Shown here: positions 21,367 through 28,723 of the stretch, piece by piece
How the letters are laid out: every line of letters begins with the position of its first letter
How positions within the stretch are numbered: position 1 is the stretch's first letter
From: Actinosynnema sp. ALI-1.44
GTDB lineage: Bacteria; Actinomycetota; Actinomycetes; Mycobacteriales; Pseudonocardiaceae
Assembly: GCF_001984155.1 (NCBI RefSeq)
Contig: NZ_MTQO01000052.1
Coordinates: 1 to 64,000, forward strand
DNA: 64,000 nucleotides
Direction: 5' to 3'
The notes under the pieces: generated by a model
Databases searched by the model: none
Told to the model about the DNA's origin: nothing
What the model saw: only the letters and a program-made list of their open reading frames with translations
Made by a program: the position numbers and the translations under genes

Positions 21367-22185
21367 TCACGGAATGATGTCCCACTCGAGAACCTCACCG
21401 TCGACCACCTTGGGGCGGTAGTGCTTGAGCACGACGCCACCGGTCTCCAGCGAAGTCGCCGTCATCTCCAGCAGCTCGGTCAACGTGCGCGGATACGTGT
21501 CGAAGCGCATCTCCGACTCCTCGGAGTGGTCACCGAGCCAGCCGTCGCGCCCCGGTCGTTGGTCGAGCAGCAGGTTGCCGCCGCCGCCATCGTGCGCGAA
21601 CGGCACAACCTGGCCGTGCCACCACCAACCGACGCTCTCGTCGTGTCCGCTCTTGCTCAGCACGTCGCACATCATCTTGGCTTCCTCGCCGATGTACCTC
21701 GTCGACAGCAGCCGGTAGAACGGCGGCAACGCGAAGCCCGCTCGCATGTCCGTGCCCGCACCGTCGTGCCGCCGCAGGAACGCGACCAGTTCGGCGGGGA
21801 AGGGCACACCGATCTGCCGCTGCGTCTCGGCGATCAGCCCGGGGTCGGCGGGCGGGGCGAGCGTCGCGGCGGTCGCGGGCGCGTTGGCCGCGAGCCACTT
21901 CTCGATCCGCTCCCACGCCCTGTTCATCCGGCCGGTCACCCGCTGGGGCACTTTCACCAGTTCCTTCGGCCCCTGCCCGATCCGGCATCCCGAGTCGACG
22001 GTCAGCGTCGGCCGCGGAGGTGGCGGCGGGGGCGTTGTCGTCTTCCTGGTGGTGCTCGTCGCCGAGACCCGTGGGCCCGCACCAGGTTCGGTGTTGGACG
22101 CCAGCAACACCGTCACCACGCCGACCGTCACGACAGCGACGACGATGCCGACAACCGCGAGAACCTGCCCCCTGTGTGGTTTCAC
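21367..22185 (-). CDS. Membrane-anchored SMI1/KNR4 (SUKH) family protein
   Basis: A 272-residue protein with an N-terminal membrane helix (about 9-29), a Thr/Pro linker (about 45-60) and a SUKH domain (about 95-260). Family landmarks are IGVPFPAELVAFLRRHDG, ESVGWWWHGQVVPFAHDGGG and NLLLDQRPGRDGWLGDHSEE. SUKH proteins include immunity proteins of polymorphic toxins, but also chromosomal members of unknown role. No toxin gene is visible nearby. The domain should face the outside of the cell because the short N-terminus is basic. It is divergent from the amide-ligase operon. Confidence 0.85.
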   Translation of the reverse strand: MKPHRGQVLAVVGIVVAVVTVGVVTVLLASNTEPGAGPRVSATSTTRKTTTPPPPPPRPTLTVDSGCRIGQGPKELVKVPQRVTGRMNRAWERIEKWLAANAPATAATLAPPADPGLIAETQRQIGVPFPAELVAFLRRHDGAGTDMRAGFALPPFYRLLSTRYIGEEAKMMCDVLSKSGHDESVGWWWHGQVVPFAHDGGGGNLLLDQRPGRDGWLGDHSEESEMRFDTYPRTLTELLEMTATSLETGGVVLKHYRPKVVDGEVLEWDIIP

Positions 22186-22235: not shown

Positions 22236-23258
22236 GTGGACGAAACGACCGTCGAAGCCGGACCGCTGGTCACGGCGAGCTCGGTGAGGTTCCGGCTGCC
22301 TGACACCGGCCCTGTCCTCGCCGGGGTCAGGCTGCTGCCCGCCCTGTCGCTGCCCGGCGCGGCACTGGAGTTCACGCACGCGGACGGCTGCTGGACGCTG
22401 CCGCTGAACCGCCCGCCGGTCTGGCGGATGGAATACCGCCTGCAGTTGCGGCACCGCGACGGCCGGGTCGAGGAGATCTGCGACCCCGGCAACGAACTGC
22501 GCGCGCCCGGAGCGTTCGGCGACAAGTCCGTTGTCCAGTTCCCGGACTACGCCGCCCCGCGTTGGCTCGACACGCCCCCGGCAGGTGAGGTCGTCGACCT
22601 GGACGTCCCGGGGATCAAGGCCCAGCTGTGGTCGCCCGGCGAGGGCCCGATGCCGTTGCTGGTGGCCAACGACGGCCCGGAGTACGACCGGCTCGCCGGG
22701 TTGACGCGGTTCGCCGCCTGGTTCGACATCCCGCACCGGGTCGCGTTGCTCCAGCCGGGTGATCGTGATGACGAGTACTCCGGCAATCCGGAGTACGTCC
22801 GCACCCTCGCGCGTGACCTGCTGCCCGCGATCCGAAACCGCGTCCCGGTGGAGAAACCCGTGGTCGGGATGGGCGCGAGCCTCGGCGGGCTGGCCATGCT
22901 GCACGCGCACCGGCGCAGGCCGAGCCTGTTCGGCGGGTTGTTCCTGCAGTCGGGTTCGTTCTTCGACCGGCGGTTGGATCCGCAGGAGTCGGGGTACAGC
23001 CGGTTCGGGCGGATCACCAGGTTCGTCGGCGGTGTCGTACGCGGGACGGGAAAGGGCAGGCCGATCCCGGTGACGATCACGTGCGGTCTCGCCGAGGAGA
23101 ACCTGGCGAACAACCGCCAGCTGGCCGCGGCCCTGGTGGCGCTGGGATACCCGACAGGACTGGTGGAGGTGCCGGACGCGCACAACTATGTGGGGTGGCG
23201 CGACGCGTTCGACCCCGCGCTGGCCGACCTGCTGCGCACGGTGTGGGAGGGATCTTGA
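22236..23258 (+). CDS. Enterochelin-esterase-like alpha/beta hydrolase of the ligase operon
   Basis: A 340-residue hydrolase. An N-terminal beta domain (about 10-110, with RMEYRLQLRHRDGRVEEICD) precedes an esterase D/Fes-type catalytic domain. The nucleophile Ser215 lies in GMGASLGGLAM, and a His in PDAHNYVGWRDAF is the likely catalytic base. There is no signal peptide. Start choice is between GTG 22236 and GTG 22227. It is the first gene of a four-gene operon and overlaps the next gene by 4 nt at a TTGA junction. It may hydrolyse an ester or amide in the product or precursor of the two ligases downstream. Confidence 0.8.
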   Translation: MDETTVEAGPLVTASSVRFRLPDTGPVLAGVRLLPALSLPGAALEFTHADGCWTLPLNRPPVWRMEYRLQLRHRDGRVEEICDPGNELRAPGAFGDKSVVQFPDYAAPRWLDTPPAGEVVDLDVPGIKAQLWSPGEGPMPLLVANDGPEYDRLAGLTRFAAWFDIPHRVALLQPGDRDDEYSGNPEYVRTLARDLLPAIRNRVPVEKPVVGMGASLGGLAMLHAHRRRPSLFGGLFLQSGSFFDRRLDPQESGYSRFGRITRFVGGVVRGTGKGRPIPVTITCGLAEENLANNRQLAAALVALGYPTGLVEVPDAHNYVGWRDAFDPALADLLRTVWEGS

Positions 23259-23980
23259 GACGTGACCAGGTGGACGTGGCCGGCGGGACGGTGATCGCGT
23301 ACGGCCACTACGGCAAGCCGTTGCTGGTGTTCCCGTCCGAGCAGGGCCGCGCGTGGGACTGGGAGAGCAACGGGATGATCGACGCGGTCCGGCCGTTGCT
23401 CGAGGACGGTCGGGTCAAGCTCTACTGCGTCGACTCCCACGACGGCGCGTCGTGGTCCAATCGGTCGATCCCGTTGGAAGAACGCGCGAGGCACCATGGC
23501 ACGTACGAGGCGTGGGTCCTTGATCACGTGCTGCCGATGATCCACGCTGACTGTGGTGGACCGCAGGAGGTGACCACGATGGGATGTTCGCTCGGCGCGT
23601 TCCACGCGGTCCTCTTCGCCTTGCGCCGCGCCGACTTGTTCCCCCTCGCCATCGGCCTGTCCGGCAACTACGACGCGTCCTCCTGGCACGGCTGGGGTGA
23701 GCGCGGCGACGCGACGTACTTCGCCAACCCGGTCGACTTCGTGCCGAACCTGGACGGTGATCACCTGGAGTGGTTGCGGTCCAGGCTGTCGGTACTGCTG
23801 GTGGTCGGCCAGGGCCAGTGGGAGGACACGACCGGCTCGCTGCCGTCCACCCGGCACATGGCCAATGTGCTGCGGGACAAGGGCCTGCGCTGCGAACTCG
23901 ACGTATGGGGGCACGACGTGCCGCACGACTGGCCGTCGTGGCGCGCCCAGGTCGCCCACCACCTGCCCAGGTTCTGCTGA
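23255..23980 (+). CDS. COG4947-like alpha/beta hydrolase of the ligase operon
   Basis: A 241-residue esterase-fold protein. The nucleophile elbow is MGCSLGAFHAV (Ser112), with VDSHDGASWSNRSIP earlier and a late His in WGHDVPHDWPSW. The start appears to be TTG at 23255 because it overlaps the preceding stop (TTGA), follows GGGAGG by about 6 nt, and yields the full fold. It differs from the first hydrolase in length and domain content, so this is not a recent duplication. Its coupling to the ATP-grasp and GCS2 genes suggests a role in processing the same compound. Confidence 0.8.
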   Translation: MRRDQVDVAGGTVIAYGHYGKPLLVFPSEQGRAWDWESNGMIDAVRPLLEDGRVKLYCVDSHDGASWSNRSIPLEERARHHGTYEAWVLDHVLPMIHADCGGPQEVTTMGCSLGAFHAVLFALRRADLFPLAIGLSGNYDASSWHGWGERGDATYFANPVDFVPNLDGDHLEWLRSRLSVLLVVGQGQWEDTTGSLPSTRHMANVLRDKGLRCELDVWGHDVPHDWPSWRAQVAHHLPRFC

Positions 23981-23996
23981 GGAAGAGAGGCCGCGC

Positions 23997-25229
23997 ATGC
24001 CGGACAGCACAAAGCACTTGCTCGGACTGCTGCTGGGCACCGAGGAGGACTGGCCGCGCGCGTTCGAGACGCTGGTGGCGCGGCTCGGGCCGGTGCGCGG
24101 TCCGTCGGGTGCCGACCACTCGTTGAGCACCGAGCGGATCACCATCGAGCCGTTCGACCTGCGTGCGAAACCGCGTTACGACCTGGTGATCGACCGGCTC
24201 GCGTACTGGTACTACGTGCCGCGTGAGTGGTTGAAGAAGGTCGCGCTGATGGACGACGTGTACCTGCTCAACAGCCCGTTCACGTTCCAGTCCATGGAGA
24301 AGCACGCCGCCTACTGCGCGATGATGCGGCTGGGGTTGAAAGTTCCGCCGACTTGGCTTGTGCCGTACAAGAATCCGGTCGACCACGCGAAGTACGCCTT
24401 CACCGCGGCGAAGTACAACAAGCCGTTCGACCTGGACGCCGTGGCCGACGAGGTCGGTTATCCCCTGTTCATGAAGCCCTACGACGGCGGCGCGTGGCGC
24501 GGTGTCTCGCGGATCACCGACCCGAAGGCGCTGCACGAGGCGTACGACTCGTCCGGTGAGATGCTGATGCACCTGCAGGCGTCGGTGGAGGGCTACGACT
24601 CGTTCGCCCGGTCGCTGACCATCGGCCCGGAGACCATGGTCATGCGGTTCCAGCCGGAGAAACCGATGCACGAGCGCTACGCCGTGCAGCACGGGTTCCT
24701 GTCCGACCAGGCCGGTTCCGAGGTCGTCACGATCTCCCGGCTGATCAACGCGTTCTTCCGGTGGGAGTTCAACTCGTGCGAGAGCCTGGTGGTCGGCCAG
24801 GAGATCTACCCGATCGACTACGCCAACGCGTGCCCGGACATCTCGATCACCTCGCTGCACTACTACTTCCCGTGGGCGATCGGCGCGCTGCTGAAGTGGT
24901 CGGTGTTCTGCGCGGTGACCGGCCGCAGGCCCCGGCTGGATCTGGACACCCGCAAGTACTTCGAGGTCGCCGACTCCGAGCTGGACTACGGCGCCAAGCT
25001 CGCCGAGTACGGCAAGCTGGCCGACAAGTACTTCGACACGGCCGCCTACCACGAGTTCTGCGCGACCTCGTTGCCCAATGTGGACACGATGGTCCGGGAC
25101 TGGGTGTCGTCGCCCGACTTCGACTCGTTGCTCGTCGACACAGTGCGGGCGACGTATCCACCGGCCGAGCATGATCGGTTCGTCGCGCACTTCCGCGGCC
25201 TGATCGGACTCTGGATCCAGGAGGGCTGA
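23997..25229 (+). CDS. ATP-grasp carboxylate-amine ligase
   Basis: A 410-residue ATP-grasp-fold enzyme. Visible elements are LLNSPFTFQSMEKHAAY (residues about 90-106), the nucleotide-binding Lys160 in YPLFMKPYDGGAWRGV, and a Mg/ATP-side segment SLVVGQEIYPIDYANACPDI. The family joins a carboxylate to an amine through an acyl-phosphate. It is not obviously RimK, glutathione synthetase or D-Ala ligase; length and sequence fit the uncharacterised ATP-grasp proteins found next to GCS2 ligases. It starts 16 nt after the second hydrolase and ends 3 nt before the GCS2 gene, so translation is probably coordinated. Confidence 0.82.
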   Translation: MPDSTKHLLGLLLGTEEDWPRAFETLVARLGPVRGPSGADHSLSTERITIEPFDLRAKPRYDLVIDRLAYWYYVPREWLKKVALMDDVYLLNSPFTFQSMEKHAAYCAMMRLGLKVPPTWLVPYKNPVDHAKYAFTAAKYNKPFDLDAVADEVGYPLFMKPYDGGAWRGVSRITDPKALHEAYDSSGEMLMHLQASVEGYDSFARSLTIGPETMVMRFQPEKPMHERYAVQHGFLSDQAGSEVVTISRLINAFFRWEFNSCESLVVGQEIYPIDYANACPDISITSLHYYFPWAIGALLKWSVFCAVTGRRPRLDLDTRKYFEVADSELDYGAKLAEYGKLADKYFDTAAYHEFCATSLPNVDTMVRDWVSSPDFDSLLVDTVRATYPPAEHDRFVAHFRGLIGLWIQEG

Positions 25230-25232
25230 GCG

Positions 25233-26711
25233 ATGGGTCAGGAAGTCGAGCGGCGGACCTTCAGCCGCGAGGACAGAACCCGCTACCGGCACAAGGTGCG
25301 GCGCTGTCTTGACGCGTTCGCCCGGATGCTGCAGGAGGCCCGGTTCGACTTCGAGCGGCCGATGACCGGGCTGGAGATCGAGCTGAACCTGGTCAACAAC
25401 CAGACCGAACCGGCGATGCGCAACGAGGAGGTGCTGTCCGCGATCGCCGACCCGGACTTCGTCACCGAACTCGGCCAGTTCAACATCGAGATCAACGTCC
25501 AGCCGCGCGAACTGTCCGGCGGCGGCGTCACCGCGTTCGAGAAGCAGGTCCGCGACAGTCTCAACGCGGCGGAGCACAAGGCCCGCACGAAAGGCGCGCA
25601 CATGGTGACGGTCGGCATCCTGCCGACGTTGCGCGCCACGGACCTCACGCGGGACAGCCTGTCGGCAAACCCGCGCTACGCCCTGCTCAACGACCAGATC
25701 TTCACCGCGCGCGGCGAGGACATGCACATCTCGATCGAAGGCACCGAACGCCTCGAGGTCACGTGCGACTCGATCGCGCCGGAGGCCGCGTGCACGAGCA
25801 CGCAACTGCACCTGCAGGTCAGCCCGGCGCAGTTCTCGGCGTACTGGAACGCCGCGCAGGCCATCGCGGGCGTGCAGCTCGCGCTGGCCGCGAACTCGCC
25901 CTACCTGTTCGGGCAACACCTCTGGCAGGAAACCAGGGTGCCGTTGTTCGAGCAGGCGACCGACACCCGGTCCGACGAACTGAAGGCGCAGGGCGTGCGG
26001 CCGAGGGTGTGGTTCGGCGAGCGGTGGATCACCTCGGTGTTCGACCTGTTCGAGGAGAACGTCCGGCTGTACCCGGCCCTGCTGCCCATTGTGGACGACG
26101 AGGACCCGTTCGAGGAGCTGGAATCCGGAAACATCCCGTCACTGGGTGAACTGCGGTTGCACAACGGGACGATCTACCGCTGGAACCGCCCGGTGTACGA
26201 CGTCGTCGACGGAACTCCGCACCTGCGGGTGGAGAACCGGGTCCTGCCAGCCGGGCCGACCGTCGTGGACACGCTGGCCAACGCGGCGTTCTACTTCGGT
26301 GTGGTCCGGATGCTCGCCGAGGCCGACCGGCCGATCTGGTCACAGATGTCCTTCAGCGCGGCCGAGGAGAACTTCCACCTCGGCGCCCGCCAGGGCATCG
26401 AAGCCCAGCTGTACTGGCCGGGCGTCGGCTTCGTGCCCGCCGCGGAACTCGTGCTGCGCCGGTTGCTGCCGTTGGCGTACGAGGGTCTGGATCGCTGGGG
26501 TGTGCATCCCGATGAGCGGGACCGGCTGCTCGGCATCATCCAGGACCGCTGCCTGACCGGCCGCAACGGCGCCACCTGGCAGGTCAGCGAGGTCACGCGG
26601 ATCGAGGAGCGGGACAACACCGACCGCTACACGGCACTGCGCACGATGTTGAACCTCTACATCACCAACATGCACTCCAACACGCCCGTGCACTCGTGGC
26701 CGATCGACTGA
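25233..26711 (+). CDS. GCS2-family (glutamate-cysteine ligase-like) carboxylate-amine ligase
   Basis: A 492-residue ligase of the GCS2/YbdK group. It shows the acidic ATP/Mg motif MTGLEIELNLVNN (E48, E50), GQFNIEINVQPRELSGGGV, SCTSTQLHLQV-like ACTSTQLHLQVSPA and LRVENRVLPAGPT, all typical of glutamine-synthetase-fold gamma-glutamyl ligases. True glutathione or mycothiol ligases in actinobacteria differ (EgtA, MshC), so the substrate is probably something else. As the last gene of the operon with two esterases and an ATP-grasp ligase, it may form one of two amide bonds in an unknown metabolite or peptide modification. Confidence 0.85.
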   Translation: MGQEVERRTFSREDRTRYRHKVRRCLDAFARMLQEARFDFERPMTGLEIELNLVNNQTEPAMRNEEVLSAIADPDFVTELGQFNIEINVQPRELSGGGVTAFEKQVRDSLNAAEHKARTKGAHMVTVGILPTLRATDLTRDSLSANPRYALLNDQIFTARGEDMHISIEGTERLEVTCDSIAPEAACTSTQLHLQVSPAQFSAYWNAAQAIAGVQLALAANSPYLFGQHLWQETRVPLFEQATDTRSDELKAQGVRPRVWFGERWITSVFDLFEENVRLYPALLPIVDDEDPFEELESGNIPSLGELRLHNGTIYRWNRPVYDVVDGTPHLRVENRVLPAGPTVVDTLANAAFYFGVVRMLAEADRPIWSQMSFSAAEENFHLGARQGIEAQLYWPGVGFVPAAELVLRRLLPLAYEGLDRWGVHPDERDRLLGIIQDRCLTGRNGATWQVSEVTRIEERDNTDRYTALRTMLNLYITNMHSNTPVHSWPID

Positions 26712-26717
26712 AGGAAG

Positions 26718-27494
26718 TCATCCCCGCCGGAACAGCACACGCCCAAGGGCCTTGATGACAACCGAAAAGAGTAGTCCCGCCACGAACGGAAGCACGAAGT
26801 GTTTCCTGTCGACGGCAGGCGATGCGGGCCCCCGAACCCCTGGGGCATGAGCCACACGCGGCGGGGCCACGATTGGCCGATGTTCAGCAGCGCGATAAGC
26901 CTGGTCAATGATTTCATAGAATCGGCGATCGCGGCGGGTGGGCGCCGTTTTCATTCGCCGCGGTCCCACCTTCTGCCAATAAGTCCGTCCTGGCATCGCC
27001 GAAAAAATCTCGCCACACGCGACCGACAGGGTCGCATCATCGACCTCGCCGAGATCGTAGACCGAACGCCAGTAGGAGACAATCAAATTGACGTATGTGA
27101 ATTGACGTTCAGCCGCAAAGCTGTCGGTGGCGTACTCTCCCCAGCACTCCATGTAGACCGGATCATCCATGGCCGTTCGCAGGAGATCGACATGCAGCCC
27201 GCGAAGCGCACTCGCCCGGGTCGCTTTCGCCTCGCGACTCTGAATGATCAACGAGACGACGACACCGATGAGCGCGATAGCCGCGACCAGAGCCGATACC
27301 GCGCCATAAGTCTGACCAACATTACTGAGCAGCTGCCAATCCGAATTGGTCCCATATCGTCCGATCAGCCACACAGCAAAAGGAGAGAAGACCACCGCAA
27401 TGACGGCGAATACCGCCAGAAGTACTACCGGCAGTGTACGACGCCTCTTACCCAGCCCGCCTGTCACCCGCATCCGTCGTACCGCTCGAGCCAT
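26718..27494 (-). CDS. Membrane protein, DUF6082-like
   Basis: A 258-residue protein with two N-terminal membrane segments (about 22-45 and 63-85), then a cytoplasmic domain with RASALRGLHVDLLRTAMDDP, VYMECWGEY and VNLIVSYWRSVYDLGEVDD. This pattern is that of the actinobacterial DUF6082 family, whose function is unknown. A third hydrophobic segment near 235-250 is followed by FRRG. Codon use is less GC-biased than in the flanking operon. A TACAAT box six bases before the ATG suggests a leaderless transcript. It converges with the GCS2 gene. Confidence 0.72.
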   Translation of the reverse strand: MARAVRRMRVTGGLGKRRRTLPVVLLAVFAVIAVVFSPFAVWLIGRYGTNSDWQLLSNVGQTYGAVSALVAAIALIGVVVSLIIQSREAKATRASALRGLHVDLLRTAMDDPVYMECWGEYATDSFAAERQFTYVNLIVSYWRSVYDLGEVDDATLSVACGEIFSAMPGRTYWQKVGPRRMKTAPTRRDRRFYEIIDQAYRAAEHRPIVAPPRVAHAPGVRGPASPAVDRKHFVLPFVAGLLFSVVIKALGRVLFRRG

Positions 27495-27500
27495 TCGCGG

Positions 27501-27506
27501 ATTGTA
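27501..27506 (-). promoter_or_regulatory. Probable -10 element of a leaderless promoter
   Basis: On the minus strand TACAAT is followed by six bases and then the ATG of the DUF6082-like gene. That spacing places the transcription start at or next to the initiator codon, the usual form of leaderless mRNAs in actinobacteria. No convincing -35 was identified. Confidence 0.45.
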
Positions 27507-27542
27507 TCAGCCCGCCCTCTCGACAGATCGACGAAACAGGGA

Positions 27543-28163
27543 CTAGCTCGGCAGCCGACTGACGTCAGGCGGTGGAAGACGCACCAGTTCCCGCTCGTAG
27601 AAATCGGCAATATCCTCACCCATCGAGTACAGTCGCTCGATCTCCCCTCGACTTGCCGACACAACACTCTCGTCCGTTATTCTGCGACTGCCGAACGGGA
27701 CACCCCGCTCATCGTAAAGTATCTCGTACATCACTCTCGAACCAAGGACAAGGACCTCAGGTATCTGATTTTCGCCTTCATAGTCACGCACAGCGGAAGC
27801 GGTCACCACCCTGATCTTCTCACCGCACTCCGCACGAACCTTCAGCGCATTCATTTCCCATTGCACATAAGGCGTGATCGGAAATTCCACGACCCGCACG
27901 CGCTGGAAAACGACACCGCGAGCAGCCTGGTCGGAAAAGTAGCCGAGAAGGTCAGTTCGGTCGGCTTCGTTGAACCGGACGGCGGAGTCCCAGTCACCTG
28001 CCGTGAACGCCAGCCAACTCGGATCGTCCCCCTCGTCGAAATACTGCCTGCGTTCAATCTTGTTCACGACATCGGCCAACCCCTTCCGCTCCCTCGGCGC
28101 TTCAGCCAGATAGTCGTCCAGCGGAAGAAATACACCCGGCTCCCGCCGGACACTCTCAAGCAT
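27543..28163 (-). CDS. DUF6879 family protein
   Basis: A 206-residue protein. Internal segments such as PSWLAFTAGDWDSAVRFNEA, VRVVEFPITPYVQWEMNALK and RVMYEILYDERGVPFGSRRI are typical of the actinobacterial DUF6879 family, of unknown function but often located beside small regulators. I chose the ATG at 28163, which overlaps the stop of the upstream small gene by 8 nt; an upstream ATG would read through that gene. The DNA is visibly less GC-rich than the flanks, so the pair may have been acquired. Confidence 0.75.
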   Translation of the reverse strand: MLESVRREPGVFLPLDDYLAEAPRERKGLADVVNKIERRQYFDEGDDPSWLAFTAGDWDSAVRFNEADRTDLLGYFSDQAARGVVFQRVRVVEFPITPYVQWEMNALKVRAECGEKIRVVTASAVRDYEGENQIPEVLVLGSRVMYEILYDERGVPFGSRRITDESVVSASRGEIERLYSMGEDIADFYERELVRLPPPDVSRLPS

Positions 28164-28470
28164 CCGGAATGTCCCCTTTGGCGGCGACCATTGTTTCCCT
28201 CGGAACGACAACCACACGTTCATCCTCGGCCAGCTTGACACCATCAGGAAGACGCCCGCGGTACACGTCGGTCAGGTCGCGACCGATCACGGCGACGTCC
28301 CCGTTGGTCAACTCCCAGACGTCCGGACAGACTTCCGTGGTCTTACTCAGCTCATCGTCGTCGCCGCCCGCGGTGATATATGTCAACTCTTTGGCCGATT
28401 TTCCCCATCGCCGCTCGAATGCCGCCGCCGGATCCGCTTCCCATCCACGTTCACTGCTCTTGCTGCCCAT
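28156..28470 (-). CDS. Small hypothetical protein co-transcribed with DUF6879
   Basis: A 104-residue protein that I do not recognise. It starts at ATG 28470 with GGGAGG seven bases upstream. It is acidic, has no membrane segment, and contains AFERRWGKSAKELTYITAGG and DVWELTNGDVAVIGRDLT, suggesting a small beta-rich domain. Its coding end overlaps the DUF6879 start, so the two products probably act together. Confidence 0.7.
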   Translation of the reverse strand: MGSKSSERGWEADPAAAFERRWGKSAKELTYITAGGDDDELSKTTEVCPDVWELTNGDVAVIGRDLTDVYRGRLPDGVKLAEDERVVVVPRETMVAAKGDIPDA

Positions 28471-28723
28471 AATCAACCTCCCACCGGAATGCGAAACAAA
28501 CAAACAGTATCGAGCGACCTGTGAAACCACACCAAGAAGCTGCCCTCGTCACCCGTACAGGTCAATAGTCGATCTCACAGAGGCCATGCAGATGAGGCAT
28601 ACCGCGAACCGTCGAAGCCAGCAGTGGGATGTTCACCCTCCACACGGACGGCACCAACAACCTGCGAACGCAACCGGTCTGCGAGCACTTGACGACGGGT
28701 GACCATGCGTACAGTGTGTCGCC

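Follow-up and report, generated by a model that had tools for sequence, protein, structure and literature searches.

The 64,000-nt stretch of DNA analysed here (the window; positions 1 to 64,000 of contig NZ_MTQO01000052.1 of Actinosynnema sp. ALI-1.44) carries at 22236-26711 a compact unit of four genes for two hydrolases and two ligases, all on the + strand. EST1 (22236-23258, GTG start) encodes a 340-aa Fes-like (enterochelin-esterase-like) alpha/beta hydrolase with a PF00756 match, and EST2 (23255-23980, TTG start, with an in-frame GTG alternative at 23270) encodes a small hydrolase of 241 aa that also matches PF00756. GRASP (23997-25229, ATG start) encodes a 410-aa ligase of a divergent ATP-grasp family, assigned by predicted fold and conserved residues and ending in a helical C-terminal region, and GCS2 (25233-26711, ATG start) encodes a 492-aa carboxylate-amine ligase of the glutamate-cysteine-ligase fold (PF04107). 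EST1 and EST2 overlap by 4 nt, the EST2-GRASP gap is 16 nt and the GRASP-GCS2 gap is 3 nt, and the open reading frame (ORF) coordinates agree with the original prediction, made from the letters of this DNA, of a co-directional four-gene unit whose members overlap or lie at most 16 nt apart. Comparison with other genomes showed that the unit is a modular system centred on GRASP, in which EST1-EST2-GRASP is the core and GCS2 is optional.

Both hydrolases passed the PF00756 gathering cut-off of 22 bits (EST1: E 3.1e-8, 34.1 bits; EST2: E 3.8e-6, 27.3 bits), which bears out the expectation of two esterase-fold proteins with GASLGG and GCSLGA elbows, and the elbow serine is invariant in each. S215 (GASLGG elbow), E287 and H316 of EST1 were kept in 61 of 61 sequences; for EST2, counted together with the EST2b form of the extended loci described below, S112 (GCSLGA elbow) and H224 were kept in 87 of 87 and E190 in 83 of 87. 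By sequence, S215/E287/H316 and S112/E190/H224 are the probable catalytic triads. EST1 also matched the enterochelin esterase structure PDB 3mga (E 9e-5), and the region it matches is the C-terminal esterase part of Fes, but it scored far under the cut-off of the Fes equivalog family NF007758 (44.6 vs 222 bits) and is not a member.

Profile search of GRASP reached no Pfam cut-off, the score for the D-Ala-D-Ala ligase (Ddl) family PF07478 being 12.7 bits (gathering cut-off 24); for the RimK family TIGR00768 of NCBIfam it was 20.3 bits (cut-off 143.4). Its AlphaFold model (pLDDT 90.0) was nearest in Foldseek to ArgX (3vpc, E 3.1e-10, TM 0.51 by query length), Ddl and RimK, and LysX and the macrocyclase 7m4s were also among the fold matches. 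K160, which the original prediction had named, is invariant in 35 aligned sequences together with E262, D274 and N277; the last three would be metal-site-type residues. Judged by the modelled fold and these conserved residues, GRASP belongs to the ATP-grasp superfamily. RimK, LysX, ArgX and Ddl are thus its closest solved folds and have ATP-grasp-type residues in common with it, but GRASP differs from RimK and Ddl in missing both family cut-offs and in its C-terminal region, where residues 284-410 of the model are helices only (DSSP). Identity among the aligned GRASP proteins was 45-77 % between genera and 25 % for a distant form, GRASPd.

GCS2 passed the PF04107 gathering cut-off of 21 bits in hmmscan of the protein (E 3.1e-8, 33.8 bits), and so two different amide-ligase folds are combined at this locus, as had been proposed. 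Despite the hmmscan pass, the window's GCS2 gene was not among the 7 matches of a PF04107 search of its own genome. The GCS2 sequence profile found no solved structure at E 0.1; the AlphaFold model (pLDDT 92.8) matched YbdK (1r8g, E 9.9e-13) and plant glutamate-cysteine ligase (GCL; 2gwc, E 1.2e-10) and, more weakly, PafA and Dop. G46, E48 and E50 of the previously noted GLEIEL motif are invariant in 43 GCS2 sequences, and GCS2 shares its fold and this conserved acidic motif with YbdK, EgtA and plant GCL. Membership of the EgtA or YbdK families was rejected for this protein of about 490 aa, which scored 18.9 bits against the equivalog TIGR03444 of EgtA, the ergothioneine gamma-GC ligase (cut-off 370.8), and 27.1 bits against the YbdK family TIGR02050 (cut-off 176.4). 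The idea that neither ligase is closely homologous to an enzyme of a known pathway was therefore upheld, the EgtA, YbdK, RimK and Ddl cut-offs all being missed. None of the four proteins reached an NCBIfam cut-off, which for GRASP applies to the best 25 of 30 families.

Conserved gene order in related genomes had been set beforehand as a test of the prediction. A sample of 200 genomes of the window's family (167 without a GRASP match are not listed by name) contained GRASP in 13, namely 8 in the window's genus, the window included, and 5 in two other genera, and we opened the 12 non-window regions. The order EST1-EST2-GRASP-GCS2 was kept in 6 of 7 other genomes of the genus, which makes 7 of 8 GRASP-bearing genomes counting the window; the remaining one (L224) had no GCS2 in the region. 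EST1-EST2-GRASP was likewise kept in 5 of 5 genomes of the two other genera, with no GCS2 in the region. The pN/pS ratio was 0.08-0.26 in 16 comparisons (four genes with four relatives each), and purifying selection acts on the four genes within the window's genus. Two of the opened regions were also among the named loci described below (L221 = L036, L223 = L037). The genome behind L036/L221 is labelled Rhodococcus rhodnii NRRL B-16535, but it has 12.4 Mb, falls in the window's genus and carries GRASP at 90 % identity, and the species label looks wrong.

A wider sample was made of 296 evenly drawn Actinomycetota genomes, searched at E 1e-10 for GRASP and EST2 and at 1e-30 for GCS2. GRASP and EST2 were each found in 24 genomes and both in 21 (Fisher 5.3e-26, a test that ignores shared ancestry), so the search for co-occurrence that the prediction had suggested gave an association. 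The pair shared a genome even when far apart (G085) or on different contigs (G183). GRASP without EST2 was seen in G013, G157 and G279, and EST2 without GRASP in G077, G153 and G287; the G287 match is a 55-residue fragment, and G077 and G153 have an ATP-grasp of another type, P, about 0.7 kb from EST2. G256, counted among the 24 GRASP genomes, holds the distant homologue GRASPd only. Of 20 wider regions, taken from 19 of the phylum genomes, 11 showed EST1-EST2-GRASP as a contiguous run. A pattern scan of named genomes, from which the best 80 of at least 562 relatives (at least 588 stretches) were kept as loci, showed EST1, EST2 and GRASP arranged in that order on a single strand in 40; EST1 or EST1b was present in 63, EST2 or EST2b in 48 and GCS2 in 18. 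Because this order is found again in different genera and also in other classes of the phylum, the gene set is more than a chance association; its relatives turn up in many actinobacteria of soil.

The four-gene system was not fixed, however: the EST1-EST2-GRASP core stood, and GCS2 as a constant member or obligate partner was rejected, since 12 of the 24 GRASP genomes of the phylum sample had no GCS2 at the thresholds used. GCS2 occurred in 47 of the 296 genomes, 35 of them without GRASP, and together with GRASP in 12 (Fisher p 4.3e-5, again ignoring shared ancestry). All 49 searched genomes behind the 80 named loci, mostly isolates, contained GCS2, which is common in actinobacteria anyway. 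Among the 80 named loci, 18 had GCS2 at most 10 kb from GRASP, at distances of 5 to 9507 nt: in 6 it stood downstream in the same orientation, in 11 the two genes converged and in 1 they diverged. On a 63-row GCS2 tree, with its adjacent rows taken from the GRASP loci and partial copies excluded, the label "adjacent to GRASP" needed at least 5 changes, which indicates that the adjacency was gained or lost repeatedly. The window genome has a second GCS2 (G000:C45:157989-159476, 60 % identity) that lacks EST1, EST2 and GRASP as neighbours, and none of these three genes was found beside GCS2 in 14 + 15 GCS2 regions. The 29 regions had been picked because their GCS2 is not adjacent to GRASP or comes from a genome that has no GRASP, L155, a GRASP region, having been set aside. 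A common neighbourhood of non-adjacent GCS2 copies was rejected, as no neighbour occurred in more than 3 of 14 regions with heuristic gene calling.

Some lineages carry an extended form, with up to three further ATP-grasps (P-like, Q and P) and an S51-type peptidase. Its carriers are Pseudonocardia (L043, L048), Geodermatophilaceae (L071, L076), an unclassified actinomycete (L092) and the phylum genomes G075, G177, G183 and G279 (L198, L202, L259 and L197), L197 having only Q and P-like. The extra ATP-grasps matched Pfam ATP-grasp families, some below cut-off (Q of L043), and their matches to LAL_C2, the L-amino-acid-ligase C-terminal domain, were below cut-off. The S51-like peptidase was present in every extended locus except L197, and its PF03575 match was over the cut-off in L198 (1.9e-6) and below it in L076 (8e-4). 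EST1b, which matched Enterochelin_N below cut-off (1.6e-4), was found in every extended locus except L197 and L048, where the contig ends, and EST2b in every one except L197, L043 and L048; in L043 and L048 a plain EST2 stands directly before GRASP. In G183 the extended block and GRASP are on different contigs; in G085 GRASP shares a contig with a P-S51-EST1b-EST2b block, at a distance of 1.8 Mb. Q occurred at 1e-60 in 4 of 296 genomes, all of them GRASP genomes. The window's own genome had no Q match at that threshold and, in the P search, weak matches only (24-28 %); a search there for S51 gave no hit, a negative that carries no weight.

In a third arrangement, GRASPd is accompanied by a protein whose match to circularly permuted ATP-grasp type 2 (PF14403) is weak and below cut-off. 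This arrangement was seen with EST2 in L204 (6564-9485) and with EST2-EST1 on the other strand in L203 (9345-14638), and it is possibly a separate system. Plasmid-borne GRASP was rejected, as the search of plasmid records gave no GRASP match; EST2 relatives (28-38 %) were found on 14 of these records. Of nine EST2-like plasmid loci that were opened, three had an ATP-grasp directly upstream: Peptoclostridium (L176), Pararhizobium (L177) and Sinorhizobium (L229). The Peptoclostridium ATP-grasp showed no significant BLASTP similarity to GRASP but 28 % identity to an actinobacterial P over 347 positions (E 4e-40), so small Fes-like hydrolases partner at least two kinds of ATP-grasp. On the plasmid of Peptoclostridium acidaminophilum (L176, 2506-12672), the ATP-grasp and EST2-like pair has a DAHP synthase gene on either side, and hutP and hutH follow after a few more genes; these neighbours may be a hint that the substrate there is aromatic or linked to histidine.

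The gene set is real and conserved, and no publication was recognised as describing it in the literature searched, which does not cover Iyer et al. 2009. The pseudouridimycin (pum/sap) cluster of Streptomyces, compared by description only, is likewise an actinobacterial cluster with two carboxylate-amine ligases, PumK and PumM, that add units sequentially, but both are described as ATP-grasp-like, and its gene table, as far as the part of PMC6586884 consulted goes, contains a pseudouridine synthase, oxidoreductases and an aminotransferase and no esterase pair. Operons that link distinct ATP-grasp ligases with one another, or ATP-grasp with COOH-NH2 ligases, are also a known kind, according to the section of PMC4431377 that cites Iyer et al. 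2009 (Mol Biosyst 5:1636), and the ATP-grasp and COOH-NH2 ligase linkage of those multi-amidoligase neighbourhoods is shared by the present unit. Since the PumK/PumM design is established and such linkage was noted before, the set appears to be a variant within the known multi-amidoligase kind.

We consider it about an even chance that the four genes are the compact version of a modular system, independent of nonribosomal peptide synthetases (NRPS), that builds a small peptide-like metabolite, possibly a gamma-glutamyl compound. GCS2 would form the acyl phosphate of a carboxylate, which by precedent in the PF04107 family would be the glutamate gamma-carboxyl, and join it to an amine; GRASP would activate a second carboxylate likewise and add another unit; and EST2 and EST1, as Fes-like serine hydrolases, would process a precursor, an intermediate or the product by hydrolysis or transfer of one of its ester or amide groups. 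In other lineages the chain could be lengthened by up to three further ATP-grasps and trimmed or recycled by the S51-type peptidase. We infer the substrates, the order of the reactions, the role of the hydrolases, the small size of the product and a cytosolic location. More tentatively, the set might make a widespread, undescribed low-molecular-weight peptide-like compound of actinobacteria (for example a gamma-glutamyl osmolyte, redox buffer or signal), without NRPS or ribosome and with a chain length set by the ATP-grasp modules of the lineage. If so, the window's genus would make a minimal GRASP/GCS2 product, and lineages with extra ATP-grasps and the S51 peptidase longer ones. A physiologically useful small molecule is suggested because GRASP is conserved, under purifying selection and usually accompanied by dedicated hydrolases, and standard cluster finders may miss the compound because it would have no NRPS, polyketide synthase (PKS) or ribosomally synthesised and post-translationally modified peptide (RiPP) signature. 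Comparison of compact, extended and GRASP-only strains offers a natural route to the reaction order.

Several observations weigh against this proposed scheme. Besides the frequent absence of GCS2, neither esterase was present in 14 of 80 named loci, partly from short contigs: 73 of 80 loci hold at least 3 kb of upstream sequence, so some of the esterase absences are contig ends. EST2 is not obligate, as 28 genomes with an EST2-less GRASP locus had EST2 elsewhere in 14 cases and none in the other 14 (E 1e-8); this search covered 28 of 32 EST2-less loci, and a 29th genome, L049, had a local copy. With the queries used, six of the nine plasmid loci (L178, L179 and L230-L233) had no ATP-grasp. Clustering of the neighbouring ORFs of at least 80 aa in the 80 loci gave no pathway marker among the 8 listed clusters that were annotated (kinase, TPR_20, phosphomannomutase, an ABC ATPase in 15 of 80 loci and four without a Pfam match), the remainder being unannotated. 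A pathway revealed by conserved neighbours was rejected, because no other cluster exceeded 18 of 80 loci after removal of clusters overlapping the module in other frames.

The same evidence bears on other explanations. Protein or peptide tagging, in which GRASP (RimK/LysX-like fold) and GCS2 (PafA/Dop superfamily) load a protein or carrier with amino acids and EST1 and EST2 remove them, would fit the nearness of GRASP to ArgX, RimK and LysX, the weaker PafA and Dop matches of GCS2 and the PF14403-like protein adjoining GRASPd in another lineage. We regard it as unlikely, as GRASP falls under the RimK family cut-off, the operon, with its gaps of 16 and 3 nt, has no space to encode a carrier or tag between its genes, and the clustering showed no conserved small neighbour of at least 80 aa. 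Catabolism of glutamylated amines is a precedent for a cycle of ligation and release, and a catabolic or detoxifying cycle in which GCS2 or GRASP gamma-glutamylates or amidates an amine or acid that EST1 and EST2 later release would agree with the pairing of ligases and hydrolases, including EST2 and ATP-grasp in Peptoclostridium, Pararhizobium and Sinorhizobium. This is, if anything, a little less probable still: the extended form has more ligases than simple masking and unmasking needs, and the 8 annotated neighbour clusters, in a set left mostly unannotated, include no oxidoreductase.

The resemblance of EST1 to enterochelin esterase and the sub-threshold Enterochelin_N match of EST1b could also point to siderophore or depsipeptide use, with EST1 and EST2 as siderophore esterases and the ligases making part of the siderophore, but EST1 stays far from the enterochelin esterase cut-off, no siderophore gene is among the 8 annotated clusters, and we think this very improbable. 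Least probable of all is a graspetide-type RiPP, a ribosomal precursor peptide cyclised by GRASP. An ATP-grasp enzyme close to hydrolases and the macrocyclase 7m4s among its fold matches recall such systems, and alpha/beta hydrolases are known from some graspetide loci, as far as the part of PMC8939145 consulted describes; yet the inter-gene gaps are too small for a precursor gene, no precursor is among the conserved neighbours (ORFs of at least 80 aa), and the flanking sequence of the unit varies within the genus.

In the window, a gene for a SUKH-1 (SMI1/KNR4) protein lies just upstream of EST1 in the opposite orientation (21367-22185, - strand). Members of the SUKH-1 family are frequently encountered as immunity proteins. 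Directly 3' of the operon comes a stretch of about 2 kb (26718-28684) that holds DUF6082 and DUF6879 genes and found no counterpart in the 19-kb regions compared from six relatives in the genus. The unit forms a defined block in the genus, and its flanking sequence is partly variable between relatives; in L217 the matches flanking the DUF6082/DUF6879 stretch (to 26716 and from 28685) are only 13 nt apart.

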